Below, in pieces: positions 1-61,134 of a stretch of DNA of 64,000 bases (positions are counted from its first letter, which is position 1; each line of letters opens with the position of its first letter). The stretch is from the NCBI RefSeq assembly GCF_000165425.1, contig NW_001799462.1:124001-188000 (forward strand), in the 5' to 3' direction. Below the pieces are notes generated by a model that saw only the letters and a program-made list of their open reading frames with translations, searched no databases and had not been told where the DNA came from. Source of the DNA: Paramecium tetraurelia. Its lineage: Eukaryota > Ciliophora > Oligohymenophorea > Peniculida > Parameciidae. The translations under genes were made by a program, and so were the position numbers.

Positions 1-2986
1 CAGCGTCGATGATGTGATATCCATTGAAGGAACCTGAATCCATTTATTAGACAGTTTGAATTGGTTTGACATAAGAATCACATTGGTCGCAATCAATGTC
101 TAAGGAGACAGCTTGTCCATCGAACCAATCGGAAACAAGGTCAATGTTTTATTCAGTTTGAGTAGCATTCAAGGGTCTGTAATCAAGAACATTCTGTTCA
201 ATTCTTATGGTGATTTGAGTATTGATAAGGTTGATAACTTAATAATAGGTGATGGGTGTGATGTCATTGTAATTGTTGATTTGGAATTTGATAGTGTAGA
301 CAGAAAAGTATGTAGATTAGTCATAATTTGGTTGGATTGTTAGAACAGGTTAGTCGAAATAGGAATATACTTTTTATAAGGTACCACTGTTAACATAGAA
401 TACCATTTGACTTGATCCAGCTGTTGACATCATAATGGATGTACCATCAGCTATTTTACTGCCCAATGGAATGGCTTTGAGTAAGGAGTCTCTTAACAAC
501 TTACCTGGGCCATAGACTAAGACAACAGTTTGAGCACTCTTACTATCATAAGCTCTAACAAAGAGCACACCAGTGTCTGAACAGAAATCAGTCTAAAGTG
601 GAGTTTAGATTGTGTACCAGTACAATGGCACAGTTTTCATGAGATGGATGGAATTCAAATTCTAAAGATCGTATTCTTGAATCAGATTTTGAGTGGCTGA
701 TTTTAATATAATGAAAAAGCTCTCTAATCCAACTGCCACATCTATTGATCCTTTGCTTAGAGTGATTACTTTGACAATTGTGAATTCAGCATGATAATCA
801 GCAACAATAACATTATCGTCGTTGGTTATGAAGAGGAGGTAAGAATTGTGGACTCTGTTTCCGAAGATTCTTTAAGGATTCCATGAACCTGTGAATCCTC
901 TGTATCTGAGCATGACTTCAGTTACTGAATATTCCAATTCAAATGGACTGTAAGTAGATCGTATATCGATTTGTTTTTTGTTTCCCAAAATAAAGTAGAA
1001 TTTATCTTTCAAGACAGTGACAGCTGTGATTTTATTAAGAGTCTCAGCTGGATATGAAATGCTATCGACAACACTGGTTCCATTAATACCACTAACTCTA
1101 ATGGTAGCCGAATAATCGTTGTCCAAAACAAGGTGGTAAATGTTGAAACCTTAATACCACCAAATGAAGTTGTTCATATTTAATTAGGTTGATACGTCGA
1201 AATTTTAATATTGCTTGCATTCTGATCTGGCTTTGAATTTGTCTCTGATGTAACATTGATAGATTGTTGTAGTCTTGTTTGTTGATTATAAGAGGAGAGC
1301 ATAACGTTCATCCTTTGCATCCAATACCAATACATCAGAATAAATCACTGAAGATGGATTTGGTAAACTAATAGATTCAAGAAGCATCTCTTGTAATTGA
1401 ACAATCTTGGCAGTCACTGTTGTGGCATCCTTTTGTGATAACAACTAAAGATAATTCAGATTTGGTCCAGAGGCAAGTGGATCAACATTGAATGGTGCAG
1501 GAATATCATACAAAAGACTTGGAAGTTACAATTCCTCTGTTGGTTAGACTGTATAATCTAAGGCATTGAACACTTTGAAGTTTATTGTCACCTTGCATTA
1601 GGTTGAAAATGAATCTGTGGCTACCAAAGTAAATGATTATAAAGATGATGTTGTTGTTGATGTGCTTGGGAATCTTAATAGACCATGTGTAAGTGAATAT
1701 CTTCTTGAATCTACTTAAGTGATGGAAATCAATTCAGTTTCATATGGATTAATGATGTATCCCTTGGCTCCTTCAATGACTTCCTTGTGGATGAAATCTT
1801 CATGTTCAGTACTGAACAAGTATGTGACACCCTTCTGTTAGATTATCAAAAATTATTATGAAATAACTAAGGTAGCTGGATAGGCTGCTGTGAATTCCAA
1901 AATGTATGTATTTACTGGTACCTTACCTTCAACAATTTGAATGTAATCATTGTACATGATGGCGATGACTTCCTTGACTGTTCCATCTTCTTGTAATAAG
2001 TAATCAACATCGAATTCATATGCTTAGTCCTTTGATGTGACAATTCTGTCGATGAAACCGAATTCCCCATTTCCTAAGAATTCTAAAATGTAGACTCCAT
2101 CTCTGGCTGTCAAGATGTAAACCAATCCATTTGGGAAGACTTTGAAGTCGATCAAAGAAAAGCTCATCTTCTCTGGGTTTGATACTTCTGTGATTACTCC
2201 CAAAGTTGGGGCATCCAAAACACTTTATAATCTTGGCGTGCCTTCGCTGTCTATGTAGAACACTTCAAGAAGAGATGATACATCTAATCCTGTGCTTTGA
2301 GTGGCATATGCAGGTGTTGATCTAAAGAGGAATGTGTGATCATGGCCTAATTTATTTGTGAACACTATTGTCTATGAAATTCTCTTGGTGTTCACTCTGT
2401 AATTATTGTAATTTCCGTTCTGATGGATTTTTGAGTTTCCATTCTTGTCAATGACGAAAAACTTATTTGTGAATGGCAATTTCTGACTGTCAATACAATC
2501 CAAAATGAATTTGTCTTTACTCAAATAGTCCACTCCCAAACATGAAAGGTATGAGCTTCCTGTTGAGACGCTGATCTTCTATTTGAATTAAGGAGGATTA
2601 GTATTATCACCTTGAGCCCCTTCTGAGTAGAATAAATCTATTGAATCCAATTCCACCTCAATGAAGACAAAGTGATTCATCCACACTCTTTGTCCTTTCT
2701 CTGTCAAAGCACGAGAGGCTGTGACTCTGTTGATTGTTTCAGAGTGGGGCTTTGGACTGCTCAATTAAGCAAATGGTTTCTGAATTTGAAACAATGACTA
2801 AGAAGGACTCAGACTGTATGTCAAATAGGCTCCCTCGAAAAAGGTATCTTTCAAATCCCATTCTAATGTTTCGCCTGTAGAAGGGAACACCTTGAGTGTA
2901 CTAAGCTTGGTATCGCATGGCTGGAGTTTGAGCTACTCGCTGGCAGCCACGGCAATTACGATCAAAATTAAGATTTTTGATGTCAT
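1..2986 (-). CDS. Large type I membrane/surface protein, paralogue A (3' part outside window)
   Basis: Minus-strand frame open in the TGA-only code. It starts at the ATG complementary to 2984-2986 with a hydrophobic signal peptide (MTSKILILIVIAVAAS) and runs off the left edge, so at least about 960 residues are present. The block at about 2080-2165 reads IDFKVFPNGLVYILTARDG. It matches gene B (about 4057-4128) and each repeat of the giant locus at 44272-61134, so all belong to one paralogous family. The (I/V)DF-NG-(I/F)Y-(I/L)LDA-G pattern resembles a beta-propeller blade, but I cannot name the fold. The C-terminal membrane anchor expected from gene B lies outside the window. It is divergent from gene B across 115 nt. 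The surface location is inferred from the signal peptide and from the anchors of its paralogues; the function is unknown. Confidence 0.75.
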
Positions 2987-3101: not shown

Positions 3102-6100
3102 ATGATATAAGCTCATATGTACATATTGGCATTATTGCCTATTATGGTTCTGTCGACTTGCAGTATGTGTTTATTTTTTATTCTCTAGCCACGGTTGAAT
3201 TATAAGATCATGTCTACCCTACCGTAAAAGAAACATTCAAATGGGATATCAGAAGATTTATCCAAGGTGATAATTTGAAGTATTAATTGGATGTTACAAC
3301 AACTCTTTTCCAACTTGAATAACCCCTACATAAGCTAGATGAGAAGAATCATTTTGCTGGTAATAAGAATATTCATCATTTAGCATAAATTGATATTATA
3401 GCCATAAGAGCTTTTGACATTCCAGAAACTGGTGCTTGGACCAATGATTTCGCATTCATGGGCCAAGATCCTGAAGACTATTCATGGTGGATTTACTATT
3501 CCGAAGGGTAATGAATAATTATATATCCTACTAGAAAGTAAACACAGATGAATGTAGCTCCCAAATTTGATAAAGAAATTCAATTCATAAATGACAATCG
3601 TTTGATAAAATGTTTGGATCTGGAATACATAGACAGAGATACATTTTTAGTTGATTGTATCGAACCATAACCTCAAACAGAAGAGGGTCGTGTACCAGGA
3701 AAGAATTATGTCTATATCATCAAGAAGGGAGATCCCCCTAAGATTATTTCAGAATCCACATATTCTAGAAAATATTTGACTGTTAATGATAGAAAGGTAT
3801 AATATCATGTCTACAACGCTCAAAATATCGGCGATGGCTTGAATGATGAGGAACCTCTTCGAATTTTACTAAGAGGTCAATATGCCTACGGAACACCAGG
3901 TAGCAGTCCAACTAACCTTGATGGAGATTGCATAATTGATTTGTTGAAAAATAATGATAAAAACGAAATTGTTGAAACTGCTTAACATTTGGATAGAGGA
4001 TTATTGATACAAGATTTAGCCATAAAAGCAGAGGATCAAGAGAAATTTAAGTTTACTTTGATTGATTTCAAAGTAATGCCAAACGGTGATATCTATATAT
4101 TGGATGCCTACGCTGGCATCTACATTTATTACATAAATTCAAAGTCTGAATTCAAATATAAGGGTAAGATTGATATCGGAGATGGAGCAACAAATCCAGC
4201 ATTTGCCTTTGATGTCAATAATAAGATAGACTACGAAGGCACTAATCACATTCACATTGCAGTGGTTCATTAGAAATCAGTAGTTGAATACATTGATGGA
4301 GTATAGAAGGGAGGATGGTTGAACGCCTTCGAAGCTAAGCATCCTTCATTCATTTTTGCAAGTCAACAATTTTTGATTGTCAATCCAGGAGGAAACACAT
4401 TCTACATTTACAACTCAGATCATCAATTCCTCATTCATACAGAGACTTTGCTCACTAAAATATACTTGGCCCAATCCCTATGAACCAGATTTGATTGCTG
4501 TCACAAACTCATTCGCTTACAGATATGAAGTTGGTCATGCAAGATTGGTAGCCCATTCATTCGATGCCACTCTTGGAGATAATGTTGTAAAATTTTCAGC
4601 CGTTGGATAAGACGAGAAAAGTTGTAAAGCCTCACTCAAGTATCAAATAATCAAGGAGGGTGATACCAACATTTATCCTGTTGATCATATTCCCATCCCA
4701 AATATAATGTAATATCCTTCCGATGCAATCGAAGTTTAAGAATTTGCAGCAGGACCGAACTTGATATACACAAATGGAGATGATTCACAAAAGGATCACG
4801 TTGTTGTAGACATTCACACAGTTTGGGAATTGAATGTGACTGGATTGACTTTTCCAACTGTAACTGATGTGGCATATGCAGACATACTGATAGATCCACA
4901 TTGGGTTAATGAACATAAGTTTTGGTTCCTCTATTAGTTGCAATCAAGTAAATAGGTTGAAATCTTTGAGTGCACAACTCAAACTAAGTTATCTAGAGAT
5001 GTTCATTGTGAAGAACATGCCAAATTTAAGATTCCAAATTTATTGAATCCAAGTACTTCTCAATTCGATTGGGATGCAGAAGAAGGTGATGTATTAACAC
5101 TTTAATTCCTCGAAAATGATTATTAGATCACAATCTTCGAAAGTACTCATGATTCGTCAGCTCCTTTATTTTCATTACCATAACCTCCCTTAGACCAAAT
5201 ACCTGAAAATAAGATTTCTTCATTTACTGTTTTGAGAAAAGCCATCTATATTGTGATGCAAAATAAAAAGGAAGTTGACGCTTGGTTTGGCTTCTTCCCC
5301 ACACCAACAAAACATGTCATTTCCAGTAAAACAATTAAAGATTAGGGAAGTGATAGAATATTTGAACCAAAGAAAGTGTTTGGTAATCCTGCTTTGAAAA
5401 GCGAGTTTGTGTTGATTCAATCTAAAGATTGCATTTTCTTCGGAGACATGAGAAATACCTTTACTCTAATTTATGTGTTCGACATCATCCCTGATGCTGA
5501 AATTAGAGCCTATTTGGGAATGAGAACAATCTTCATTGTTCAAAAGAGTGAAACCCAAGGATTCAAGATCCAAGAATACAATTACGAGAAGTTGAACAAC
5601 ATCTACTTGATGAAAGAATTACCACTATACGATTACGTCATCCAAAGTCCATTGACAACTGACTTCTGTTATTAAACTGGATTCTTGTTTGTCCGTGCTT
5701 TGGACCCAGCCTCATAGGAAACTGTGATTTTGGTCTATGAATCAAATGTCCTCTATCAATTATCATTACACAAAGTAGTTAAAACACATTTGAAAATTAA
5801 TGATGGACAAGTCATGAATATGGCTGCAGCTGGTCATGACCAAATGTACATGTATGTCAACAATCAACAGAATGTCTAAAAGATGGTTGGATTCTTAAGA
5901 GATGCCCTTGTTAATTTATAACCATCACATCTATCCAATCAATATATCACCAATTTGGTGGCCACAGTCAATATCACCAATCAAGCAGTGACTAAACCCA
6001 TGTCAATTAAATATCCTGTTAAGTACATTAACACTTAAACCTACATTCAAGTTAATTAGGAGGAGTTGGCAAAACAAAATGCAGAATTCGTATTCACCAA

Positions 6101-7749
6101 TCAAGCAGCAGATCAATATTTGCAAATCAACACAACTGGATGGTAAGCTGGATAGGTTATTAAATACGAAGCCCTCTGTGATTAATGCGAATCACATTTA
6201 ATCGAAATGGTTAATCCAGTTTATCACATTAATGATGGAGGAGATTATCAATTCCATTTTGTTGATGGAATTGCTGCTGGCAATTAAATGATCTTCTAAA
6301 CTGCAGATTCCATCATAATATAAGATGCTTCAGGTGCTTGGGAAAGGCACAAATTACCAATTGGAGTTGGTACTGATTGTATATCCATCACAGCAACAGA
6401 TGATGGAAAAGCTGTTTTCAGTGGATGCGAAGAAAGAGGAGTTGTTAATATTTATCTATCAATTTGTAATGGTAAAACATGCACTGCAGCTACACCAGCT
6501 TTGTAATAAGTTGCTTAAGGAGCTAAACATCCATCCAAATTACTTTATAAAGATGGAATTCTCTTCATTTTGGATAATTACAATGACAGACCTACCTTAT
6601 ACGATGGAACTGTTAGAGTCCATAAGGTCAGTCTTAACGTAGAAGCCAAAACTTGGGATCTAGATGCAGGAAAAGTCATTAATTCATAGTTCTTGAGCAC
6701 TGAACCAACTATTCCATTTTAAGCTTCAGATTTTGATGTTATTAAATACGAAGTTGGTAATGTTAATTACTATAAACTACTCTTATCCAGTGCTCTTAAG
6801 AGATTGTGGTTTGTTGACCTTTATTGGGATAATGGAACAATTAAATTTGGATAACATGATAAATTTGAAATTTACAATTTAATAGGCAAAAATTTAGCAA
6901 TTCAAGAAGTCACTCGATTCTATTAAATTCGAGCAATCAAATCAACCAAAAAGGATAAGAAACTATTGACTACTGCATTGGTGTCTACCACTAACATGGC
7001 CACTTATGGTGTCACATTTACCTTCGATATTTCAGATCCTGTTAAAGGAGCACCCGTTGAATCTGATGGTACCATTCCATTCTTGCTTGCCAATTATGGA
7101 ACATGGAAATAACTCAACAAACTTACACTCTTTGAAGATCATGTTGCCATTGCCTATACTAATGATAAGAGTATTTTAGTTGCTGTTTATGTATTGCCAA
7201 CCGTCGACCATTATGCTCTCTAGGAAGGGGAACCTAAAGTTATCACTCTCATTGGAGGTGAAGAAGATGAGTAAACTACTCAAATCTCTACTCAATTTGT
7301 CATGACTCTATCAAAAGATGCAGCATTAGCAAGAGTACATTAAATTTATAAATTTATAGCCTGTCCTCCATACCAACCTTGTATATAACATTGCATAAAA
7401 GGAAAATATGCTCGTCAAATATGGAGTCACTGATTTTCCAAGATTACACATCCAAAAGGGAGATCAAATCAAAGAACAAGTTGTGTCTATCTTTGCTAAA
7501 AATGACTATGGTTAAGCTAAAGGAGTCATTCGTTTAACCAAAAAAGATCCACCTAATCCCAACCCTCCTAAACCAGATGATGATTCGTAATTTATACATT
7601 TATATCCCTTTAGCAAAGGAAGTAGCAATTGGTGGTGGATAACCTTGATCATTGTCTTTGGAGTTGCCATCCTAGCCGTTGGTGGATACTTTGTCTATGC
7701 AAAATATTTTAAATCCTCCAATACACCATTACATGTTTAATCCTATTGA
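3102..7749 (+). CDS. Large type I membrane/surface protein, paralogue B
   Basis: The ATG at 3102 (or the in-frame ATG at 3117) opens a signal peptide (MYILALLPIMVLSTC). Introns at 3163-3188 (26 nt) and 3508-3534 (27 nt) are both GTA...TAG, and the second carries a TGA that would stop an unspliced message. Another 25-nt intron (GTACATT...TAG) lies near 7335. The frame ends at TGA 7747-7749, about 1,510 residues. The C-terminus is a Pro/Asp-rich linker, one transmembrane helix (WWWITLIIVFGVAILAVGGY) and a short basic tail ending near LHV. The giant protein at 44272-61134 has the same tail layout, also ending near LMHV. The family block is LIDFKVMPNGDIYILDA. Several internal introns were not individually fixed. 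A cell-surface or endomembrane glycoprotein is inferred; the ligand or role is unknown. Confidence 0.8.
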
Positions 7750-8641
7750 TATATCATAATAATTTAAATTATATATGTAAATCAAAGGTTCGATAGAAAT
7801 TATAATTAATTCAATAACTCGATTAATTAATTTTTTGAATTAGTAATTTGATGTCTATCATCAATTTAAACCTAAAGGCTTTTCATAAAAAGTTTAATTA
7901 ACACATAAAAATATTTATAAATAACAACCAAAATTAAATTTCTATAAAGCATAAAATAATTATCAATATTAAAAAATCCTATAATCTTTTTGATTTATTA
8001 TCAAATAACTTATAGAATTTTCAGAATTTAAATTAAACCCTCTTTGAATAATGAAATAATTCAGATTTTCTCAAGGAATTATTCCTGCTAGTTAATTTAC
8101 TATAACTGACTTCAAAATAATCCTCCTAATAATAAACAACATTTCAGAAACGCAGATGCAGCATATTAGTAAATGTCACAATTTGAAAACTAATGTAACA
8201 ATTTTAGTCTAGAAACCAAAATTAAAATTATTAATTTTTCATTCAACTATAATTATTTTTCAATATAACCTAATTATTCTCTGCTTAATTATATTGATTT
8301 TTCGTTGCATTGTCTAATTTTTTGTTCTTCAATTTGAGTAACATTAAGTATTCTTTCTAGTGTTTGTTAAATTAAATTATAAAAAATTCAATCGCTCATA
8401 CTCAAGTTGGAATAAGAAATTATAGTTATTAATTTGATTCAGAATTTTAGTCTAAGTGACAATAACAACATTAAAAGTTAAACACTTGTAATTTTATATA
8501 AAATATTATAAATAAAAGAATATTAAGAAAGACAAGGTTTCTCTAAAGTCAACCTTTATGTTTAATGATTTTATAATCTGTAATAAAATATTAGGAGTTT
8601 GAATTAACAATTTTCCAAACATTAATAACAATTAACAAATG
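7750..8641. other. 892-nt AT-rich intergenic stretch, possible gene relic
   Basis: Lies between the 3' ends of gene B (plus) and the VAP gene (minus). No complete gene is convincing. On the minus strand at about 8130-8350 a short reading frame is rich in Glu, Gln, Lys and Leu (IEEQKIRQCNEKSIQLSREQ) and looks like a coiled-coil fragment, but TGA and frame breaks interrupt it. On the plus strand a 130-codon TGA-free run from about 8051 is biased to Ile/Leu/Phe and probably arises by chance. Confidence 0.4.
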
Positions 8642-43832: not shown

Positions 43833-43940
43833 TTTTAATGAATTTAAATATAATAGTGAAAGTGCTTTATTTTTGTAAGTAATTGTCAACTAGAGTCTCT
43901 AATAATATTAGTGATTATAAGAACTGCAATGTTAAAGAAA

Positions 43941-44240
43941 ATGATGTATTTTAATATGAGTAGCTGTAGCTGTGAATTAGAATTTGATATTGATTTAAAA
44001 AATGAGTGTATAGTTTTGAGAATCAAGAACAATAAAAAAAAGCAACTACTATAAAAAAGAAACATAACAACAGAAGAAATAGATAATATCATTAGAAAGG
44101 CTAAAGAAGAATAAGAGCAATAAAGAAATGAGAAAGATGAAGTTTATAAAAGATACAAAGTAGTAAAAACCTATTTATTATTTATCCGATTTAAAGTACA
44201 AGAAATGCTTACTATCCAAAGATTTAAATAATATAAATTG
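43941..44240 (+). pseudogene. Possible relic of an Hsp70 C-terminal region
   Basis: A TGA-free plus-strand frame reads ELEFDIDLKNECIVLRIK, then ITTEEIDNIIRKAKEEQEQQ, then EKDEVYKRYKVV. The FDID-N start, the basic middle and the EEID..I.KAKEE helix follow the order at the junction of the Hsp70 substrate-binding domain and its lid. The middle is eroded (Lys/Gln run in place of the usual ITITNDKGRLS). No ATPase domain precedes it and no proper stop follows before the next gene. It lies behind the PI3K start. The similarity is judged by eye and could be coincidence. Confidence 0.4.
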
Positions 44241-44271
44241 ATTTAATATTATAATTTTGTTAATGTATAAC

Positions 44272-47200
44272 TCAATTTACATGCATTAATCCAGATTCCT
44301 GATCATCTGAATCATCATCTTGATCTCTCTTCTTTCTAAAGAACAAGAATCCTATTAAACCTAGGAAAACAACAGATCCAACTATAATGAGTATGATCCA
44401 CCAAGCTTTAGAGCTTGAACCATTATCATCATCACCTCCATTATCTGGTTTAATATTTAATTAAATCGATTTAGAGACAGATCTGTAATCGTTTGAAAAT
44501 GTTATTGTTAAGGTTTGGTTTTGAAGATTGGCACTTTCTCCGAAGTACAAACTGATATCCTTTCTAATCTCATATTGATTTAATCCCTTACTGATTTTAC
44601 TTGATATCAAAGTTGAGCCCTAAAGTATAAATAAAAATAATTACTTGTAAATGAAGTGGGAAATCACTTGGTTCCAGTTTCTATGTTCCAATGGTAAATG
44701 AAAAGGAACCTCTTATCACAGAAACAGCACTATCTGTAATGTGATAAACACCAACAACAACTTTCGATTTATTTATAAATGACACAATAACTGATTCCTT
44801 ATTAGCAGCCACAGTATTTAAAGCTTTCCATGTTCCGTATCTATTTAGTGCCACTTTGACTTTAGTATCGGTCAACTTATTTGAATGGTTGTCAGAAATA
44901 GCAAATTACAGAGTGAAAACATAAGATGATGCATTATCAGTAACAACCACTATGGTGACACTCTTAGTTTTATCCTTAATTGATTCATCTATAATCTTAT
45001 TAGAATAATAATGGGTCTAATCATTTGCATATTGCTTATTTTCATTTAACCATTTGTTAAGTAACAAATACTCAATGTATATAAATTTGGTTTCAGAGGT
45101 AGCTTTTGTAATGCTGACATCAACAAATAACAATCCATTTACGCTATCAGAAATAATGAATTAAACTGCAAATGAGTTTTCCTCAGAATGAGTCACTGAA
45201 TGAACAAATGAGGATGGTCTAAATTATTTAGGTGTTTATTGTCCTAATTTAGATTAAATGAATTGATAATCAATGGTAAACAATAAAGTAGATGACCAAA
45301 TTCCATCCATTGATTATAATTTATGAATTGTAATATATCCATCATAATTTTCAGGATTCAATGAATCAGTATGAAGAACTGCAACAACATCTTAAGCCAA
45401 AGCTATAATTTAAGTAGCAGATGGTGCAGAAATGAAAGCATTTTCTCTCTTACATTCTTATTTATCATTACAATTAGCAACCAATATTTAATCTTCAACT
45501 CCATTATTACAAAGGGAATAGAGGGACTTTTCATAAGATGTTATTCTGAAACAATCATATTCTTCGCCTAAAGCATCAAGAATTGGTTTGCTTTCTTCTA
45601 ATTTATTGTCCTTCATCAAAAGAACTGTTTTTGTTGCTTAAAGAACTACATTGTTTTAGAAGGCTGAGGTGTCTTTGAAATAGTAATTCTAAAGAACATA
45701 ATTTTTCGTTTAATGTAGATATGATTATAAGAAGATATTATTAGTTTTTTGTTATAGCAATGTACAATAGGGTTCTTATCCACTAATCCAATCATTATCT
45801 AATTTAATAGTAGTTGAATTTTGTAAAGGTTCAATATCAATTGATTAAGTGGATTTTTTGTCATCAACGATCAAGTTTGTGAATGTATTGATCACTTTAA
45901 CTGTTTATTTAAATGGAAGTAAATTATTTAAGGAATCAGCATTCTTAACATTAATTGAAATTTCGTAATCAGTTAGATATTTTTGTTTCTATTTGTTAGG
46001 AATGAGAATCAATTGTGGATCAAGTACAATAAAATCTAATTATTAAACTGTTTCACCGTTGGCTAATGTAAGTATATAGGCTGATCCAATTGGGTCTGAT
46101 CCACTTGCAGATACTGCAAAGGTATCATCAACTTTAGCATTGATTTTAACAGCCAAATAAAAGGTGTCATGTTGTAATAATCCTGGTTTGTAAATGTTCA
46201 AATATACATTATCATTTTTGGTGGTTCTTATTACTAAAATACCAGTTTATAAATGTGATGAGACACCTAAAGGATTGACAATTTAATATCCAAATAATTC
46301 TACAGTCTTCTGCTTGAAAACATTATTAATTTTTTCATAATTGTATTCACTCAATTCTTTGTTATTCACAAAGAAGAAGGAATTAGTTGATGAAGTTATG
46401 TATATTTAATTGCCCTTTGTATAATCCACCTTCGATCCGTAAATGAATTCTTGGTTGCTGTAATTGATAATAGCAACATTGTTCTCATTTTGAACAAAGA
46501 TCACATTTTATCTTAGGACTCTATTGCCATATAACTTTATAGGTTTCCAATCTCCTTAAAATCCAATCAAAGTTGCTCCTGTTACTTTATTGATCAAAGT
46601 AAACTTCTCTGTGGAATAAGAGGACAAATCCCCATTTTATTAAATCACAAACAAAAAGTTACCTTGATTCTAGAATGCTACTGCTTTGAGTTCATCCTTC
46701 TCTTCATTTTCATTTAATTTGATTGTTCCATACAAAACAGTAACCCTATTTTTAATTTTGAAGAATTTAATTATAAATGGTGTTTCTAATAAGATGAAAT
46801 GAACTGTTTTCTCACTATCCTACCAAATACTGAAAAGCTAATCTGATAACTGTTCTTTCACTTACACATTTCCTTAGTCTTTACATTCATATCTAACGTG
46901 ATCAGTTAACTCACAATCTTAAATAACAACTTTCTTATCCTCTTGCTAGAATACTTAGTATAGGGTTTCTTAATTAATGTCAACCAAAGATGTCTAATAC
47001 AATGGTTTTTTTGGCCAGTTGGTCACTTTTATTGTTCTCTAATGGGCAATCTGGGCAAAGACATCCAAGTCTGGCTCTGCAGATAAGTTCAAGAAATTGT
47101 TGGAATTCTATGGTGATTTAGGTTGAACAATCTCATAAATCAAATTAGGACCTGACACCAAACTTCCTAATGTTATTTGTTCGTCGTTTTCATCTAAAAC

Positions 47201-48404
47201 CTTTGGGAAAGGAGTTTCAGTATCAACCTTTTTGTAGATTGTCTCACTATTTCCAGCCAATACTTGATAGTATATTCTTGAATAACAAACTTAATTGTGT
47301 TGAGATTTGGCTTGAATTGTGACAGCTTTGAAATTAGCACTTGCTTAGGCATTTCCATTGAATCTCAATAATCCCAAACCGAAGGTCCAAGCTGAAGAAG
47401 ATGTGAGAGAAAGTGTAACAATATCTTGACTGTTTGGATTTACGATTCCAGCTCCATTTGACACATTTACAATATCTATTAAACTGCTGTTCTCATCATC
47501 GAAATGATAAATGTATAGACTTCCTTGATTATGCAAAAACACATATTTCTCACTTGACTTAATATATTGAGGATAAGTCAAACTAGCAAATGGCAGATCC
47601 TATACTTTTTGAACTTTACCTTCATAATTTATGATTCCATAGTAATTATAACCCTTTATTACAAACATTTCCTCGCTGTTGCTAAATACAGTTCTATCAA
47701 AAGCAAAACTTTGGCCAAAATTAAATCCAATAAATCTAGAAAACTTCCAATCAGTATCAAAAAAGACAACAAAGATGCCCAATTTAGCATCTAATAAATA
47801 AATTTACCCATTCAATCCAATTTAGAAATCAACAATATTCAATTAATTTATCTATTTACCAGAAATATTAGATAATTTGGTTTTATCTAAAGTTGTTTTA
47901 CTAACTAAGCCATCATTTGTAAGTGCGAATAATTCAACAAATGAATTATTGGCTAATTAACCTTCAGCATTAATTGACAATGAAACTCTGACAACATAAT
48001 GATCATCCTTCAATTTGTATGTACCCAACACTCTGTTCAAAGAGTTATTGTCAACTAAAACAGTTTATGTTTCTTCAGTTCCTTTAATTAATAATAAGAG
48101 TTTGTTATTTTAGATTTAACAATCAACAACAAAAGTGGTAGTTGATAATTAAACAAAATCTAAGCAACTAAGATTGGCATCTGTCTTTTTAATGTTAACA
48201 ATTTGATTGAATGATGGAGCCTTATTTATAGATGCACTAATATTAAATATAATTTATTACGTATCTGTATAAAAAATGGAATATTTAGAACCATCCTTAT
48301 TTAAAAATCCAAATTGGTTAGACCATGCTCTATTCTATGTGACTAATGCTTTAGCTGATACTATTTATGTTGCACCTAATTAATTATAAATTTATATAAT
48401 ATAC
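44272..48404 (-). repeat. Ectodomain unit 4 with transmembrane anchor
   Basis: C-terminal unit. The family block is at about 47765-47835 (VDFQIGLNGQIYLLDAKLG). Its first 330 bases share the near-identical duplication. Farther in it has diverged, except for a patch at about 45200-45500 very similar to 49340-49640. The intron homologous to the unit-opening intron is present at 48376-48404, but one extra base upstream makes retention, not splicing, keep the frame. Confidence 0.65.
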
Positions 48405-51400
48405 CTTGTTTATGAATTTATAGATTCTCCTATTTATTATATTGCTTAAAATACTGAAAAATCAGTTGTGTCTACACTATATTTTAGAGAAACCCCATCA
48501 AATAAGTTTTAAGTTAATGACCATTACAGAACTTCTCCTTATGAAGGATAAATCTTTAGATCGGTAACCTTGGTTCTACATTCGTCTTTATCTACAGGGA
48601 TAATTGATAAATTTATAGTTCTGACGACTCTTCTAAAATCGTTCTAAAATGTTAGAGTTAGTTTCTAAGTATGCAATTTCTTTGGCTCCCCAAATTTCAA
48701 TATTTATTGATATCTAACTTAATTTTAATAGACTCCAACTGTAGAAGTACTTGTCAAAAATAATTCATCTGAGTTGTAAATTAAGAAATCTTGAGGTGTG
48801 ATTTATTTTTTAAAGGTTGCAAAGGTATGAGAACCTTGAATAGTTTATACATATGCATTCTCTTAATCAGTTGGAATCTTGTAAACTCCAATGACAACCT
48901 CTAAATTTTTGACATAAGGAATTGCTATTGAAGATGATGAAGCTGATACATAGTTCAAAGTCTTGAAATTACCATATCTATTCAAATTAAAAATTGTTTT
49001 AATTTAACTTAATTTATTTGACACATTAGCTTATATAGCAAAAGTTAATTCAAACACATATGATGATGAAATATCAGTAACAAGAACCAACTTCACAGTT
49101 TTTTTGATTGGATAGTCAATTTGTTGAGTAATTATTTAAGCTTAATAGTAATGTGTATCATCACTTGCATATTGCTCTACATTTAGCCAGTCTTTCAAAA
49201 GCTGATATTCCAAAAACTAATATTTGACTTCTGAAGTAGTCTTTGAAAGAGTTAAATCAACAAACAATAAACCATTTACACTATCTGTGATAATCAATTA
49301 TAAATAAAATAGAGAAGCATTATTTCCTGTTGGTGAATGAACAAATGAGGATGGTCTAAATTATTTAGGTGCTTATTGTCCTAATTTAGATTAGATGAAT
49401 TGATAATCAATAGTAAACAATAAAGTAGATGACCAAATTCCATCGATTGATTATAATTTATGAATTGTAATGTATCCATCATAATTTTCAGGATTCAATG
49501 AATCAGTATGTAGAACTGCAACAACATCTTAATTTAATGCTATAATTTAAGTAGCAAATGGAGCAGAAATGAAAGCATTTTCTCTTTTACATTCTTATTT
49601 ATCATTACAACTAGCAACCTATATTTAATCTTCAACTCCATTATTACAAAGGGAATAGAGTCTTGTGATATCAGCTTCTAATCTATAGCATTTATATTGA
49701 TCTGATAATTTTGGTAAGAGAGGTTGGGCATTCTTTAGGTCATTTCCCTTAAATGACAGCACTGTATTTGAAGCTTATAAAAATGTAACAGCAAAAGGTT
49801 TAGCTACATCATATATATAGTAATCCATTAGGACACCCATATCTTAGCTAACGAAAGGTAAAAGAGTTATATCATCATTCATTGCCTATAAAGATAACTC
49901 TGTATTTATTATTTATCCTCCAATCCAATCAGATCGGATTGCCACTTCTTATGCTTAATCAGTTTCGTTAATTTCAATCGACTTCAAATAATCTTCATCA
50001 TTCACAATTAAATTAGTCATAGTATTTGCTACTTTTACATTCTATTCATAATGTACTTTTTATGTTTTGTCATCCCCATTCATGATATCCATAACAATCA
50101 AGAAGTTTGAAACAAACTTTTAAAGTTTTTTTATTGGTATAATAACTAACTCAGGGTTGAGTAGGATAAAGTTTAATTATTAAATTTTTTATCCATTAGC
50201 AAAAGTTATAATGTAGAGAGATCCTCCTAATGATAATTAAAATTAGTCATCCGATTTAATTCCGTTTAATTTAAATGATAAATAGAATGTATCATGTTGT
50301 GTTAATGAAGGTCTATAAATATTTAAATAAACATCTTATGCTTTAGTAGTTTTAATTACTAGATTACCAGTTGAGAGTTAAGATGTTACAACTAATGGAC
50401 TTGCAATTGAGTATTCAAACAATTGCACTGTCTTTGCTTTGAAAATATTTAATAAGTTTTAATAATTGTATTCAAGTATTTCTTTATTGTTAACTAAAAA
50501 GAATGAATTCTTAGCAGCTGAAATATAGATTTAATTATTTTAAGTATAATCCATAGATTAAATGAATATGAATTCTGTATTGATGTAATTGATAATGGCA
50601 ATGTTATTTTCATTTTGAACAAATACAATGTTTGACTTTATCATTCTATTACCATATAATTTTAATGGCTTCCATTATCCACCATATCCAATCAAATCAT
50701 TTCCAGTTATACTATTCACAAATGAGAATTAACTACTCCAATAACTACTTAAAACGCCATTCTTTTATAAAATAAACAAGTAATCTCCTTAATTTAAAAT
50801 ACTTAATATTTATTAACCCTCTTGTTATGTAAATGAGACTGATGTCTCTTCTATTATAACTCCTTCAGCATCTGAATAAGCTGTCACTTTATATAAGGAT
50901 GATATGGTTATAAATCTCACTACATTATCATTATCTTACCATATGCTAAATAATTATTCAGATATTGGTTCTTAAAGTTAAACATTTCCATAATCTTTAC
51001 AAACATATTTAACATGATCAGTCAAAACACAAAGTTAAATTGTTAACTTCTTATCTTAAGTTTGGAAGATCTAGAATAAGGTTTCTCTATCGTTTGCTAC
51101 TAATTCAGTGCTGTATATAGGAGATTTAGGCCAATCAATAACTTAAATCTATCTGTTTTATGCAACCTAAGCACTGAAATCTAAAGGCATTTATGGCAAG
51201 GTAAGGCCGTACTCAAGATTAGGTCCTGATAGAATATTGCCCATTTAGAATTATTCAAATAGTTCATCGAAAACTTAAGGGAATGGCTAATTGGATTTAT
51301 TTTTCCTGATTGGAACTTTGCTGCTGCTTTCAATTACTTGGTACTGAATCTTAGTGGAGCATTAAAGATTATGTTAAGATGTAGCTGTAATTGTTAAATC

Positions 51401-54400
51401 TTTGAATTCTTAAGTTGCTGGACTGACTCCACTGAATTTTAATGATCCCAAGCTAACATTCCATCTAGCTGATGCCTTCAAAGACACTGTCACAATTTCT
51501 TGAATGAAGGGGTTGACAATTAACGCACCATTTGTTAAATCAATAATATCAATTAAGCCACTATTGTTATCATCAGAATGATAAACAAATAAGGAGATCG
51601 AATTCTTAACATATATATAGTTTGAGCTTGCTTAAATGGATTAAGGATAGGTGATGGAATTGAATTATAAATCCTAAACCTTTTTTGTTTCTCCATCAGA
51701 ATCAAATTAATACATAATAATTGAATCCTTAAACAACGGAATGCTTCCCTTTTTCGTTTTTAAGTAAAGGTTCTTGCAAATGAAAATGCTTGACCAAATT
51801 TAAATGTTATCCACTTTTAATATCTCCACTCTGTATCAAAGTTAACTACAATGATGCCCAATTTAGCATCTAATAAATAGAAGTATCCATTCAATCCAAT
51901 TTGGAAATCAACAATATTCAATTAATTTATTTATTTTCCAGAAATCTTAGACAATGTACTTTTATCAAGTGTTTATTTGGCTTATAGTTGACCATTTACA
52001 TATTAGAATAATTCAATAAATGAATCATTAGCTAATGAACCTTCATTTGTAATGGATAAAGTAACTCTGATAACAAATTAATTAGTTTTAACCTGGAAAG
52101 TGCCGATTGCTCTTTATAATTAAGAATTAGTAATTGTTGGTGTTTAAATTTCTTCAGTTCCTTTAATTAATAATAAGAATTTATTATTTTAGATTTAACA
52201 ATCAACAACAAATGTGTTAGTTGATAATTAAACAAAATCTAAGCAATTAAGATTGGCATCTGTCTTTTTAATGTTAACAATTTGATTGAATGATGGAGCC
52301 TTATTTATAGTTGCACTAATATTAAATATAATTTATTACGTATCTGTATAAAAAATGGAATATTTAGAACCATCCTTATTTAAAAATCCAAATTGGTTAG
52401 ACCATGCTCTATTCTATGTGACTAATGCTTTAGCTGATACTATTTATGTTGCACCTAATTAATTATAAATTTATATAATATACCTTGTTTATGATTTATA
52501 GATTCTCCTATTTATGATATTGCTTAAACTACTGAAAAATCAGTCGTGTCTACACTATATTTTAGAGAGACACCATCAAATAGGTTTTAAGTTAATTACC
52601 ATTACAGAACTTCTCCTTATGAAGGATAAATCTTTAGATCGGTAACCTTGCTTTAACATTCATCTTAATCCACAGGGATAATTGATAAATTGATAGTTCT
52701 GACGACTCTTCTAAAATCGTTCTAAAATGTTAACGTTAGTTTCTATGTATGCAATTTCTTTGGCTCCCCAAATTTCAATATTTATTGATATCTAACTTAA
52801 TTTTAATAGACTCCAACTGTAGAAGTACTTGTCAAGAATAATTCATCTGAGTTGTAAATTAAGAAATCTTGAGGTGTGATTTATTTTTTAAAGGTTGCAA
52901 AGGTATGAGAACCTTAAATAGTTTATACATATGCATTTTCTTAATCAGTTGGAATCTTGTAAACTCCAATGACAACCTCTAAATTTTTGACATAAGGTAT
53001 TGCTATTGAAGATGATGAAGCTGATACATAGTTCAAAGTCTTGAAATTACCATATCTATTCAAATTAAAAATTGTTCTAATTTAACTTAATTTATTTGAC
53101 ACATTAGCTTATATAGCAAAAGTTAATTCAAACACATATGATGACGAAATATCAGTAACAAGAACCAACTTCACAGTTTTTTTAATTGGATAGTCAATTT
53201 GTTGAGTAATTATTTAAGCTTAATAGTAATGTGTATCATCACTTGCATATTGCTCTACATTTAGCCAGTCTTTCAAAAGCTGATATTCCAAAAACTAATA
53301 TTTGACTTCTGAAGTAGTCTTTGAAAGAGTTAAATCAACAAACAATAAACCATTTACACTATCTGTGATAATCAATTATAAATAAAATAGAGAAGCATTA
53401 TTTCCTGTTGGTGAATGAACAAATGAGGATGGTCTAAATTATTTAGGTGCTTATTGTCCTAATTTAGATTAGATGAATTGATAATCAATAGTAAACAATA
53501 AAGTAGATGACCAAATTCCATCGATTGATTATAATTTATGAATTGTAATGTATCCATCATAATTTTCAGGATTCAATGAATCAGTATGTAGAACTGCAAC
53601 AACATCTTAATTTAATGCTATAATTTAAGTAGCAAATGGAGCAGAAATGAAAGCATTTTCTCTTTTACATTCTTATTTATCATTACAACTAGCAACCTAT
53701 ATTTAATCTTCAACTCCATTATTACAAAGGGAATAGAGTCTTGTGATATCAGCTTCTAATCTATAGCATTTATATTGATCTGATAATTTTGGTAAGAGAG
53801 GTTGGGCATTCTTTAGGTCATTTCCCTTAAATGACAGCACTGTATTTGAAGCTTATAAAAATGTAACAGCAAAAGGTTTAGCTACGTCATATATATAGTA
53901 ATCCATCAGGACACCCATATCTTAGCTAACGAAAGGTAAAAGAGTTATATCATCATTCATTGCCTATAAAGATAACTCTGTATTTATTATTTATCCTCCA
54001 ATCCAATCAGATCGGATTGCCACTTCTTATGCTTAATCAGTTTCTTTAATTTCAATTGATTTCAAATAATCTTCATCATTCACAATCAAAATAGTCATAG
54101 TATTTGCTACTTTTACATTCTACTCATAATGTACTTTTTATGTTTTGTCATCCCCATTCATGATATCCATAACGATAGCAAGGAGTTTGAAACAAACTTT
54201 TAAAGTTTTTTTATTGGTATAATAACTAACTCAGGGTTGAGTAGGATAAAGTTTAATTATTAAATTTTTTATCCATTAGCAAAAGTTATAATGTAGAGAG
54301 ATCCTCCTAATGATAATTAAAATTAGTCATCCGATTTAATTCCGTTTAATTTAAATGATAAATAGAATGTATCATGTTGTGTTAATGAAGGTCTATAGAT

Positions 54401-57400
54401 ATTCAAATAAACATCTTATGCTTTAGTAGTTTTAATTACTAGATTACCAGTTGAGAGTTAAGATGTTACAACTAATGGACTTGCAATTGAGTATTCAAAC
54501 AATTGCACTGTCTTTGCTTTGAAAATATTTAATAAGTTTTAATAATTGTATTCAATTATTTCTTTATTGTTAACTAAAAAGAATGAATTCTTAGCAGCTG
54601 AAATATAGATTTAATTATTTTAAGTATAATCCATAGATTAAATGAATATGAATTCTGTATTGATGTAATTGATAATGGCAATGTTATTTTCATTTTGAAC
54701 AAATACAATGTTTGACTTTATCATTCTATTACCATATAATTTTAATGGCTTCCATTATCCACCATATCCAATCAAATCATTTCCAGTTATACTATTCACA
54801 AATGAGAATTAACTACTCCAATAACTACTTAAAACTCCATTCTTTTATAAAATAAACAGGTAATCTCCTTAATTTAAAATACTTAATATTTATTAACCCT
54901 CTTGTTATGTAAATGAGACTGATGTCTCTTCTATAATAACTCCTTCAGCATCTGAATAAGCTGTTACTTTATATAAGGATGATATAGTTATAAATCTCAC
55001 TACATTATCATTATCTTACCATATGCTAAATAATTATTCAGATATTGGTTCTTAAAGTTAAACATTTCCATAATCTTTACAAACATATTTAACATGATCA
55101 GTCAAAACACAAAGTTAAATTGTTAACTTCTTATCTTAAGTTTGGAAGATCTAGAATAAGGTTTCTCTATCGTTCGCTACTAATTCAGTGCTGTATATAG
55201 GAGATTTAGGCCAATCAATAACTTAAATCTATCTGTTTTATGCAACCTAAGCACTGAAATCTAGAGGCATTTATGGCAAGGTAAGGCCGTACTCAAGATT
55301 AGGTCCTGATAGAATATTGCCCATTTAGAATTATTCAAATAATTCATCGAAAACTTAAGGGAATGGCTAATCGGATTTATTTTTCCTGATTGGAACTTTG
55401 CTGCTGCTTTCAATTACTTGGTACTGAATCTTAGTGGAGCATTAAAGATTATGTTAAGATGTAGCTGTAATTGTTAAATCTTTGAATTCTTAAGTTGCTG
55501 GACTGACTCCATTGAATTTTAATGATCCCAAGCTAACATTCCATCTAGCTGATGCTTTCAAAGAAACTGTCACAATTTCTTGAATGAAGGGGTTGACAAT
55601 TAACGCACCATTTGTTAAATCAATAATATCAATTAAACCACTATTGTTATCATCAGAATGATAAACAAATAAGGAGATCGAATTCTTAACATATATATAG
55701 TTTGAGCTTGCTTAAATGGATTAAGGATAGGTGATGGAATTGAATTATAAATCCTAAACCTTTTTAGTTTCTCCATCAGAATCAATTATCACATAATAAT
55801 TGTATCCTTGAACAACGAATGCTTCCATTTAGTTTTTAAGTAAAGTTCTTGCAAATGAAAATGCTTGACCAAATTTAAATGTTATCCACTTTTAATATCT
55901 CCACTCTGTATCAAAGCTAACTACAATGATACCCAATTTAGCATCTAATAAATAGAAGTATCCATTCAATCCAATTTGGAAATCAACAATATTCAATTGA
56001 TTTATTTATTTTCCAGAAATCTTAGACAATGTACTTTTATCAAGTGTTTATTTGGCTTATAGTTGACCATTTACATATTAGAATAATTCAATAAATGAAT
56101 CATTAGCTAATGAACCTTCATTTGTAATGGATAAAGTAACTCTGAAAACAAATTAATTAGTTTTAACCTGGAAAGTGCCCATTGCTCTATTTAATTAAGA
56201 ATTAGTAATTGTTGGTGTTTAAATTTCTTCAGTTCCTTTAATTAATAATAAGAATTTATTATTTTAGATTTAACAATCAACAACAAATGTGTTAGTTGAT
56301 AATTAAACAAAATCTAAACAATTAAGATTGGCATCTGTCTTTTTAATGTTAACAATTTGATTGAATGATGGAGCCTTATTTATAGTTGCACTAATATTAA
56401 ATATAATTTATTACGTATCTGTATAAAAAATGGAATATTTAGAACCATCCTTATTTAAAAATCCAAATTGATTAGACCATGCTCTATTCTATGTGACTAA
56501 TGCTTTAGCTGATACTATCGATGTTGCACCTAATTAATTAACTAAATAATATACTCTATTTATGATTTATAGATTCTCCTATTTATGATATTGCTTAAAC
56601 AATGGAAAAGTCAGTTGTGCCATCCTAATTGTATTTCAAGGAAACACCTTCGAAAATATTTTATGATAGATTCCATAATAATTGTTCACCAGTTGATGGG
56701 TAAATCTAGAGATTAGTGATCTTGGCGGTACATTCATTGTTATCAACTTCTTGAACGATTAATTTGAATTTTAATTTATCCTCAGAAAAGTTGTTTTTAG
56801 CAATGAGTGTGATTTCTTAGCTTTTGAGTGCTCTGTCTTAGTTTTTCACTAATAGGATTGGTGATCGGCTGATTCCATAGCTTTACAGTGGACCTGAAAA
56901 TTAGGATACAAAGAATATTAAATTCTTTTAATCGAAAAACACAGCTAGATTCAATGGACTGATCCATGAAGATTATTGATAGAGTACTCTATAGGTACCA
57001 AAACTAATGGTAGGAACAATTTCAGAAACACTATTAGCAGTAACGATATCTATGTCATAGATAACAACAGCAACTTCATTTTCTTTTCTATAAGGAATAG
57101 CTAGTTATAGATAATTGTGATGAATGGCTAGTTTGTTCATTGGAACCCAATCTCCGTATCTAACAACGACAGCAGATAAGGATTTGGCAGAAAGGAGTGT
57201 ATTAAAATTAGGTTGTCCAGTAAAATCTAATTTGAAACCATATTATGAAGCATCTGTAGTCAATATAATGAGGTAGGCTCTCAATAAATTTGAACTCCAT
57301 TCATAAGTAGGTTACCAAATGAATTGGAATGATAGGAACTTAGTTGTAGGGAGTGTGTATTGGCCAACTTGCTTATTTAAAAAATCATGAAGATTAAGTG

Positions 57401-60400
57401 TTTCAACTGACAAGAATACATACTCAAGTAGACCTGAGAATGAGAAATCTAAAAATACAAAACCACTCTCTGAATCACTGATAAACAATTTATAGGAGTA
57501 CTTATTTTCTTTAAGGTACTCTTATGTGACGACTGAAAAATCAGTTGGTCTGAAATCGTTTAAGGGAGTTGTTAATTTTGAATTAAGATAGTGTAAATCA
57601 ATGACTTCGACAATATCCAGTCTCCATTTTTATACTCCCATAATTATTTTATAAAGGACTATCTTTCCATCCTAGTAAAGTTCTGGGTTGCTTGTATCTG
57701 AATGCAAAACAACTAGAAGTTGATTGGAAATCAATTGTATTTTTGAAGCTGTTCCAAGCTTGAACTTCTCTCCCAATGGAGAACAACCTGTGATAGAAAA
57801 ACAACCAGTAGCATATATTGTGAATTCAGTTCCATCATGACACAATGAGTAGATAATCATTTTATCTTCAGAAACAGCAGCTTAATAGCATTAATATTCT
57901 TTGTTGGGCAAATCGAAATCATAGACTGATGCTAAAGTGTTGTCAGGGTTTACAAATATCAATCCTGTTGTAGCTTACATGATATTGTAGTTTTCATTAT
58001 ATTTGATGTGATCTCTAATTTCATATCCATTGAAGATTTTGGAGTTAAGTTGATAAAGAGGATTTTACAGTTCAATGTTGGTTTTACATTAATCACAATC
58101 AATTTCAAAGTTTCCAATCTACCCAGAATACCAATTTTGACCCAAATCAAAATTTTTAGTCTCATCAGTTGAATAGATCTATGCACCTGTTTTTGATAAA
58201 GGGAAATCATTTTGGTTCAACATAATTTTGGTTAAAGAAGAAATGGTTGTAACTTATTAATTGATTTCGACTGTATTAAATTTCTCTGGTTTATCTTAGA
58301 AGTTATAGTTCTTGATCTATAAATTTAATGAAAATTTATCCTAATAACTCGGTAATTCGATTATGGAATTGGTAATAATTGTTGCTTAATCATAGACTGC
58401 AAAGAGAGATTATTCTCCTTCAACATTTAAGTATAAATAGGTTTAGTTGATTCCATTGGCAGCAATTAATATTTGTTTTGAATCAGGAATAAGAGTAGTA
58501 GCTATATCCCAAGCTTGGACTAAGGCCTCATGTTGAGGAGCATTAGGTTTAAATACTAAAACAAAGGATTTGCTGCAATAGAGGCAGACACCTCTGATAA
58601 ACAAATGGCCTGTTTCTTCACTAAAGTCAACATTTAAAGGAGCAGAAATATCATACCAATATAGGTACAATTTCTTTTACAAATAGACGTTATTGATATC
58701 TGCAAAGTTATATTCATAGATTTAGGCATCTTTGGCAGTATCAGCAGATTTACCTTAGACAATGAAGAATGTTTCTTTTCCTATAGCAATTGAGTAATCT
58801 AAATTTGGAGTAATTTGTATGGTTTTAATGAAGTAAAAATAGCCAAAATCTATGTCTAGGATCAAGATATGATTTTTGTGTTGAATGAAGAGTATATTTG
58901 GATGTAACTTTTTGTTAGTGAAGAGAGCTTTTGGTTCCCAATCTTCGTTGTAGCCATATTATGAGAATGAGTTTTTGTTTAATGTTGAGAGCACTTAGAG
59001 CTCAGGTCTGTAAATAAGGAATGTGTGGATATCATTATTAGCTGTATGGACTAAAAGGTATTCTCCACAATTCAAGATATTTTAAATCTTATTTGTAGTG
59101 ACTGTAGAGTCCAATTGTATTGTTTTCACTGGAGTAACTTCGCCATTGTGTATTGATTTAATTACAACATTGTATATGGCATCAACGTACATGAAATATA
59201 ATATGCCATGTTTAGCCCAAATCGAAAAGTTTTGTTTGCTTACTTTAGTTTTGATTCCCAAATCGGCAACATATACTTCACAGGTTGTGGCATCAACATA
59301 AATGGAATTGTGAACACAACTCAAGATTTAAATTTTCAAATCTTAGGTTTACAATGCTTAATAGAAGACTGTGTCATCTTAAGTTGATATTATTTCTGCG
59401 TAGATCACATTTTTTGGTTATTCACTATTTAAACTTAATTCAACTCTTGATCTAATGGTAGTTGCAATCTCTACACCTCCCAATTGTGTTGGGTTAAGTT
59501 ATCTATATTGAAGGTTTGGCCCTGATGCTAATTTTTACAGAATAGATTGAGTTTGACCTTCTGCAATTGTCTTTGGAAAAGGCATTGGTTTATCAAACAA
59601 TTGATAAATCCAATTTTCATTATCCTCAATAATTTGATATGCAAGTTAAACAATGCATTCTTATTTGCTTGGAGACTTGGCTTTGATATTCACAACCTTC
59701 TTCTACTGTACCTTATCACTTCCCAAAAACTACAAATATCCATTGGAAATAGTGTGTCTAAAGGAGTTTTTAGTGCTGATTTGAATCAGATCTGGTTCTT
59801 ATGGGTTCACTAATAAGATGTCATTGGCAGGGATTTCTACTTTGTAATTTAAGTAGATTCTATCATTGTCCACATCAAGTTTATAGAAATAAGTCAATTT
59901 ATCATTTCTAACAATAATATTATCTTATGATATTTTAATGGAGGCTGGATAATCCAATTGGAAAAATGGAAGATTTTGAACATATGATTTTTCTTCATCC
60001 AAAACAACAAAGGAGTTGTATCCAAGGATGGCAATAACACCTAATTCAGATCCATCCTTTTTATGTTCATAATCAATATCGAAGGAATATACTCTTCCTA
60101 ATTGGAGGTCAGCTTAAGCAACTAATTCCCATGCTCCAGTTGGCTAGAATTTGACCACAAAGAGACCAAGTTATGCATCCTGAAGGAAAATGAATCCATT
60201 ATATGAGATTTCGAAATCCACAATAGTAAGTTCCATTTCAGCTCTTCCCAACAAAAATGCCATAGTAACATTATCTAAAAGATAGTTTCTGGCCACGGGC
60301 TAATAATTGTCATTCAATGCATAGACCTAAACAATTGAGTTTCCAGAAAGTTATTATGTTGGGTCCAAAGAATATGTAGGTGTTACTCTGACAACAAATG

Positions 60401-61134
60401 TAGTTTCTTTTCCTAATGCACTTGTCGAGTAGTATAATCCTATGCGTCTTTAATTGTAAATTTTAACAGAAGCTGCATCATCAAACGATGTTACTTTTTT
60501 TGTTGATTTTGAGTATATATAGAATACATCAATTTATTTTGTCATTTATTTCTCAGTCACTTCTCTTTAACAATCCACTATAAATTTATCATTGTCTATG
60601 TATTCTACATCGTAGCACTGTAGACTGTCAGCCACAGTTGCAATCTTAACCTTGGTCTTGAATTCTGGAGTCGGAATTTTATTCAATGCAGTTCTAACAT
60701 CTACATAAATGATTACCCTTCAGAAAAGTAAATGGACACTTCCGTTGCACTTTGATCGAGGAATACAAATGAATTCAACCATGATTGCATTTTCTTTGTG
60801 TGATATGGCTTTACTGCCCTGATATTCGAAGCAGCTATAAAAATTAAATGTGAAAATACGTGATATGTGACTTGAACTCTATCCAGTATTTGCAACTGGA
60901 TTAACTATCTTAAAATATGTGTCTTATAATTCATAAGTGAGGTCTTCGCCCTCAAAAAGATAATCACGAAGATTAATTTGCAATTTTTCTCCCTTTGTGG
61001 GAAACAATTATAATTACTCCACTTTTGAAGCTACGACTATAAGAAAATGAATTACAGCATCCTGTTGTCTTGGCGTTTAAGGCTAAAAGGCAAAGTGAGA
61101 ATACTATCAACGATGATGTAATCTTTTATTTCAT
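44272..61134 (-). CDS. Giant tandem-repeat type I surface protein (four ectodomain units), frame disrupted
   Basis: The start is the ATG at 61132-61134 with a signal peptide (MKQKITSSLIVFSLCLLALN). The end is TGA 44272-44274 after a single transmembrane helix (AWWIILIIVGSVVFLGLIGF) and an acidic tail (RKKRDQDDDSDDQESGLMHV). Between lie four units of about 1,360 residues, each like the whole ectodomain of genes A and B. Each carries the block IVDFQIGLNGYFYLLDAKLG or a variant. I followed the frame through all three unit junctions, using a short intron in two of them. Intact it would be about 5,500 residues. In the given sequence a 2-nt insertion in unit 2 (about 54171-54181) and several in unit 3 (about 51697-51775) shift the frame into TGA. 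It may be a decaying gene or an assembly with errors in a repeat. Confidence 0.65.
48075..56530. repeat. Tandem near-identical duplication, period about 4.08 kb
   Basis: Bases from about 48075 to 52150 recur from about 52155 to 56230 with only scattered substitutions. The start of the period appears a third time up to about 56530. The boundaries do not coincide with protein unit edges, which suggests unequal crossing-over within a repetitive gene. Confidence 0.85.
48405..52483 (-). repeat. Ectodomain unit 3 (near-identical to unit 2)
   Basis: About 4.08 kb. Its opening intron (52455-52483, 29 nt) is homologous to the one at the unit 1/2 junction and keeps frame when spliced. Its region at 51697-51775 carries several 1-2 nt insertions relative to unit 2, with a net change of about 5 nt that breaks the frame. 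The family block lies at about 51845-51915. Confidence 0.7.
52484..56554 (-). repeat. Ectodomain unit 2 (near-identical to unit 3)
   Basis: About 4.08 kb, almost base-for-base the same as unit 3. The block at about 55925-55995 reads IVDFQIGLNGYFYLLDAKLG. It opens with a 25-nt intron (56530-56554), which must be spliced to keep frame. A 2-nt insertion near 54171-54181 relative to unit 3 leads to TGA within about ten codons. Confidence 0.7.
56560..61134 (-). repeat. Ectodomain unit 1 (N-terminal, most divergent)
   Basis: First unit of the giant protein. It includes the signal peptide, an intron GTAATTATAATTG...AAAG near 61000 and one near 60832-60855. Its propeller-like block at about 60150-60230 reads IVDFEISYNGFIFLQDAQLG. 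It ends near FEGVSLKY...GTTDFSIVQAISQIGES, where unit 2 begins. DNA similarity to the other units is low. Confidence 0.6.

Follow-up and report, generated by a model that had tools for sequence, protein, structure and literature searches.

A whole extracellular catalytic unit is duplicated inside one gene in maltase-glucoamylase and in angiotensin-converting enzyme; these are animal enzymes, and no relation to them is claimed for the subject of the present work, a giant gene of the ciliate Paramecium tetraurelia which runs on the minus strand from 61134 to 44272 of a stretch of 64,000 nucleotides (contig NW_001799462.1, positions 124,001 to 188,000; hereafter the window, whose numbering is used throughout). 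Read with ciliate code 6, the gene holds four units, each of about 1,350 amino acids, between a single signal peptide and a single membrane anchor. It probably encodes a type I membrane protein and arose by in-frame multiplication, within the gene, of an entire ectodomain with its two introns, and the explanation developed below is, taken as a whole, considered likely.

Among the systems described so far, the abalone egg-coat protein VERL resembles the window gene in having large tandem repeats in one gene, but its repeats measure about 153 amino acids and repeats 3-22 are homogenised as wholes (PMC2704960), whereas in the window gene the unit of about 1,350 amino acids carries introns and homogenisation is limited to islands. 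In Tetrahymena, also a ciliate, the internal repeat number of a set of leucine-rich repeat (LRR) genes is variable and has been ascribed to unequal crossing-over, as is done here; those repeats are, however, 90-bp exons (PMC6564038), whereas the window gene is made of 4-kb whole-ectodomain units, for which a beta-propeller and not an LRR is predicted. The surface antigens (SAg) of Paramecium have a high molecular mass and, in some members, internal tandem repeats, both of which are found in the window protein; another SAg feature, the periodicity of cysteines over the whole protein, is not seen in the window family, and SAg carry a glycosylphosphatidylinositol (GPI) signal (PMC9788069), whereas in the window protein hydropathy indicates a membrane span and, after it, a charged tail, which speaks against a GPI anchor. 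An earlier note on this DNA had likewise seen no cysteine-periodic antigen pattern; indeed, cysteine amounts to about 0.8-1.0% of the residues (0.78-0.98% in six gene models), too few for a whole-protein pattern, the spacing of the cysteines itself not having been analysed. A literature search by title and start of abstract found no description of the family, which is weak evidence given the limited coverage of the search, and the database listings inspected gave it no informative name.

Architecture of the Gene

The repeat array reported in the earlier note is confirmed: one signal peptide and one anchor enclose four units, with the start at 61134, the stop at 44272-44274 and a period of about 4.07 kb in a DNA self-comparison. 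The parts of the gene are listed below, P0001 to P0007 being published gene models.

61060..61134, minus strand: signal peptide and gene start, MKQKITSSLIVFSLCLLALNAKTTG, start codon 61134; N-terminus of the published P0007
56730..61030, minus strand: unit 1 (u1, type U1)
52656..56729, minus strand: unit 2 (u2, type U2)
48578..52655, minus strand: unit 3 (u3), with a U3-type beginning, then U2-type
44437..48577, minus strand: unit 4 (u4, type U3)
44332..44418, minus strand: single transmembrane anchor (hydropathy), corresponding to P0002 residues 3159-3187
44272..44331, minus strand: short charged tail and stop, the stop at 44272-44274

The anchor is a single strong hydrophobic segment (Kyte-Doolittle 2.98) ahead of the short charged tail and the stop. 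By hydropathy, the unit junctions hold neither a signal peptide nor a strong membrane segment, as had been claimed before; within the units of some gene models hydropathy windows above 1.6 (maximum 1.96) occur, with no second strong membrane span. Judged from signal and anchor alone, the giant protein would be exposed at the surface. The two middle copies are nearly identical, in agreement with the earlier note, matching over 4.8 kb at 96%; the matches of the last copy to the middle copies are shorter (327 bp at 95%, and other tracts), and the protein identity of u1 to the other units is only about 26-31%.

Two introns, named alpha and beta, occupy identical places in u1 to u4, and most changes of frame along the gene are explained by introns of 22-29 nt.

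61031..61055, minus strand: intron following the signal peptide (25 nt), giving the junction CSSKVEQ seen in the partner P0004
60835..60859, minus strand: intron alpha, unit 1, 25 nt, phase 1
56530..56554, minus strand: intron alpha, unit 2, 25 nt, phase 1
52455..52483, minus strand: intron alpha, unit 3, 29 nt, phase 1
48376..48404, minus strand: intron alpha, unit 4, 29 nt; the usual upstream frame does not enter it, with a one-base length change at 48416
60694..60716, minus strand: intron beta, unit 1, 23 nt, phase 2
56391..56414, minus strand: intron beta, unit 2, 24 nt, phase 2
52316..52339, minus strand: intron beta, unit 3, 24 nt, phase 2
48237..48260, minus strand: intron beta, unit 4, 24 nt, phase 2
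44620..44644, minus strand: intron near the C-terminus, 25 nt

A 19-nt alternative to the signal-peptide intron, with which it shares the 5' end, fits too; it joins to CFVASKVEQ and is used in the published P0007. On C79, another contig of the same genome, a three-unit gene has alpha introns of 25, 26 and 26 nt and beta introns of 23, 22 and 22 nt at the matching places of its three units; a two-unit gene has an alpha intron of 28 nt in its unit a and another of 28 nt, in phase 1, in its unit b (C79:46477), and no clean beta intron was found in either of these two units. Splice sites near the gene ends and in C79 were placed by homology and with the help of published proteins. Since alpha and beta recur at fixed places in the units, the exon structure of a single ectodomain is repeated from unit to unit. 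The frame changes at the unit junctions were also considered as pseudogene frameshifts, and this was rejected, as they are introns. Mean intron lengths in Paramecium are 23-28 bp; the beta introns of units 2-4, of 24 nt, are a multiple of three and read without a stop, a class of intron lengths that is depleted in Paramecium (PMC11334263).

Apart from the introns, the frame is disturbed by two clusters of differences.

54174..54183, minus strand: frame disruption in u2, clustered; the published annotation divides the gene here
51706..51770, minus strand: clustered frame disruption in u3, 65 nt long

The differing columns between u2 and u3 number 81, a few of them alignment-end noise, and 11 of the 81 fall in 51770-51706. 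At 48416, next to intron alpha of unit 4, the length also changes by one base, which shifts the reading frame ahead of that intron; introns aside, the frame is open in u1 and in the body of u4. The published models of the window gene are P0007 (2286 aa) and P0002 (3206 aa), broken at 54183-54174, and P0002 covers 99% of the part of the window protein used in the search, at 98%. The earlier statement that the frame is continuous apart from two disruptions thus holds for the two clusters; it has to be amended in that there is a third irregularity, most frame changes are introns, and the frame is not open as assembled. The breaks may be errors in repeats that are hard to assemble or may represent true decay, both being possible.

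Relatives in Paramecium

C79 holds a region collinear with the window on both sides of the giant gene, where the genes A and B of the window (listed below) also have their counterparts; given the conserved gene order around both copies, the window gene and the C79 three-unit gene form a whole-genome-duplication pair. The partner gene, published as P0004 (4197 aa), is intact as a gene model. Three units are also found in Paramecium primaurelia (P0003, 4198 aa) and Paramecium sonneborni (P0005, 4194 aa), and two in P0006 of Paramecium pentaurelia (2856 aa), whose tail QESGLMHVN is common to the window gene; this variation in the number of units from locus to locus and from species to species (3, 3, 3, 4 and 2) bears out what had been proposed. 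The species range rests on protein searches, one of which scored only the 7991 candidates sharing most words.

The two-unit gene of C79 has its own anchor and lies directly upstream of the three-unit gene; beside the window gene, no counterpart of it was found at the equivalent place. The two C79 genes have a 570-bp tract in common at 89% identity (C79:48151-48720 and C79:56837-57406), which suggests gene conversion between neighbouring genes. Protein searches, together with a reading of the surrounding stretches, gave at least 20 family loci in the genome of P. tetraurelia, at least three of them multi-unit, at least 13 with one near-complete unit and at least four with partial matches only. 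A strong hydrophobic segment follows the unit in 10 of the 11 single-unit loci examined, the locus C7 having no clear one; because most single-unit relatives examined end in an anchor too, the unit corresponds to a whole ectodomain. Two single-unit relatives lie in the window itself.

1..2986, minus strand: gene A, single-unit relative, running off the window
3200..7750, plus strand, ends approximate: gene B, a relative with one unit and with the anchor type of the giant gene

The identity of A and B to u1 and u4 is only about 22-25%. As to the claim that the unit makes up the entire protein in A and B, an anchor is present at the end of B and a signal-like peptide at the start of A; an anchor in A was not found.

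History of the Units and the Crossover Zone

In a tree of 32 rows, which left out the loci C174 and C52, P0001 and the second half of u2, unit a of the C79 two-unit gene groups with all U1 units (support 100/99) and unit b with the U2 and U3 units (100/100); the single-unit loci C30 and C220 fall in the same half of the tree, and P0006 groups with the window gene in both of its units (100/100). An 11-row alignment containing whole multi-unit proteins misplaced u1 and was dropped. The synonymous (dS) and non-synonymous (dN) divergence between u2 and u3 is 0.049 and 0.007 over 536 codons, and over three segments 40 of their codon differences are silent and 17 non-silent; between the partner genes dS is 0.95-1.11, with a low dN/dS.

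The earlier idea that the array is expanding by unequal crossing-over is thereby upheld for the u2/u3 step alone, which is recent by its crossover zone and its low dS; U1, U2 and U3 themselves appear older than the split of the compared genes. The order suggested by the tree is that of one unit, two, three, whole-genome duplication and then a fourth unit in the window copy. In particular, an ancestral single-unit gene would have given a two-unit gene, which would have been duplicated; one descendant would then have doubled its second unit to give the three units U1-U2-U3, and the last whole-genome duplication would have copied this three-unit gene. In the window copy, unequal crossing-over within the near-identical start of U2 and U3 would have added the fourth unit and left u3 chimeric.

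52311..52396, minus strand: crossover zone; the beginning of u3 matches u4 upstream of it and u2 downstream

The zone was located by comparing the unit starts at sites that distinguish u2 from u4, sites above 52655 reflecting only the differing preceding unit. From the unit border at 52655 to 52396, u3 is u4-type with five u2-type exceptions; from 52311 on it is u2-type with five u4-type exceptions. At the protein level, u3 is U3-like at eight of nine informative positions among its first 50 residues and U2-like over the remainder. The switch is best read as an unequal crossover, the last exchange being placed within about 85 bases. The second unit of P0006 has the reverse pattern, U2-like at five of six sites in the first 50 residues and U3-like from residue 200 on, residues 100-199 not being diagnostic since u4 itself is U2-like there (5/7 sites); in P0001, another protein of P. 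pentaurelia, U1 is likewise followed by a U3-like unit, whose first 300 or so residues are ambiguous. P. pentaurelia was considered as a clean proof of unit loss and is retained as support only, P0006 and P0001 being gene models and P0001 ambiguous; the genomes of PMC10195154 were assembled from short reads, and the P. pentaurelia record may contain a collapse.

Homogenised Islands

Units U2 and U3 were compared within each of four genes (those of P. tetraurelia C79, P. primaurelia and P. sonneborni, and the window gene). Over an island of about 105 residues (980/981-1085/1088; island 2) they are 94-100% identical within a gene, as against about 30-65% in most other windows, and the ends of the island are nearly the same in all four genes.

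53412..53738, minus strand: island 2, u2 copy
49334..49660, minus strand: island 2, u3 copy
45197..45523, minus strand: island 2, u4 copy

In the 100 columns 986-1085 (gapped columns skipped), 27 are uniform between the paralogs of each of the four genes but vary from gene to gene, and no fixed U2/U3 difference was found; outside both islands only 3 of 1145 columns behave in this way, and fixed U2/U3 differences amount to 123. Because differences at silent sites fall as well (proportion pS 0.05 and 0.10 in the lowest windows versus 0.64-0.65 overall), the island reflects homogenised DNA and not protein constraint alone. The other island (island 1, near residues 52-151) is less constant, its length ranging between 27 residues (C79) and 97 (window gene). 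In three of the four genes the units also resemble each other over a short tract near residues 220-253. Gene conversion would be the simplest account of the homogenisation; it would keep the two islands alike between units, and the islands would supply the homology for unequal exchanges. The constancy of the island ends may be due to flanks too diverged to pair.

A more speculative view, to which we give little credence, is that the islands are kept identical because the protein needs matching surfaces, for example in self-recognition or mating contact; concerted evolution would then lead to species-distinct versions, and the islands would drive the gain and loss of whole units.

Predicted Fold

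A beta-propeller is predicted for part of the unit, the model containing a circular array of four-stranded blades; a fold computed from one sequence without alignment gave a predicted local distance difference test (pLDDT) score of 36, useless, and was set aside. Pfam gave no match above the curated cut-off for u4, u1, A and B; for u4 there is a sub-threshold match to ANAPC4_WD40 (expectation value, E, 0.022). A sequence search for relatives of solved structure returned two weak, chance-like matches only (E 1.9). Extracellular beta-propellers strung on one anchor would form a long stalk, which may serve in adhesion or recognition.

Alternative Explanations

A number of points weigh against an ectodomain multiplied in frame. 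Three breaks interrupt the frame as assembled, all of them within or next to near-identical units; gene A, read separately, showed no anchor; several branches of the tree, including those of units a and b, drew a long-branch warning from the program, so that their positions are less sure than the support values imply; P0006, with its two units, is a gene model in which repeats might have been collapsed during assembly; the propeller model covers just 411 residues of one unit, and a threefold repetition of one domain within the unit did not emerge from a profile comparison. The broken frame raises the question whether the window copy is a decaying duplicate, its disruptions real and the full protein made only from the three-unit partner gene. 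We consider this unlikely, though by no means negligible: there are three irregularities in the gene as assembled, the published annotation splits it, and an intact gene model of the partner exists; yet dN/dS is low both for u2-u3 and for the partner genes, and the disruptions are tight clusters in the stretches hardest to assemble, u1 and the body of u4 being open.

The location of both clusters and of the one-base change, in or beside near-identical copies, lends something to the quite improbable view that the fourth unit is an assembly artefact, with u2 and u3 one copy placed twice. Against it, the differences between u2 and u3 are spread along 4 kb and are mostly silent, as random errors would not be, and the beginning of u3 shows one switch of parentage; two haplotypes are unlikely if the sequenced line passed through autogamy, the progeny of autogamy being fully homozygous (PMC11334263), and the published annotation has the two copies on a single scaffold, although the reads behind it may be the same. 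It is more improbable still that repeat number varies adaptively, in a contingency system like that of ciliate surface antigens: unit number does vary between loci and species, but cysteines are few, hydropathy gives a membrane span and a tail, selection is purifying, and just one recent change is seen at the window locus. Multiplication of a whole ectodomain in frame, with a recent fourth unit in the window copy, remains the preferred explanation.

Other Genes of the Window

A ferlin-like protein with five C2 stretches and FerI is encoded at 9722-15040 (minus strand). At 19567-32265 (minus strand) there is an open frame of 3,855 aa with an unusually low guanine-plus-cytosine content (23-26%) and no Pfam match, which adjoins a HECT domain; frame and domain are perhaps one giant HECT ubiquitin ligase. 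A PI3-kinase gene in two open frames lies at 40129-44573 (minus strand), the longest of which overlaps the last bases of the giant gene. Scans of the window with Rfam (gathering threshold) and for tRNA found nothing.

Significance

The locus offers an unusually readable case of protein growth by whole ectodomains, as one-, two-, three- and four-unit genes all survive, and one in which genes separated by about one synonymous substitution per site still have a homogenised island in common, its ends nearly fixed. If the islands were indeed kept alike as matching surfaces, a single gene would couple species-specific recognition to the length of the stalk. Two questions may be put to the test here, the origin of long proteins and what keeps certain parts of a repeat uniform as its other parts diverge.
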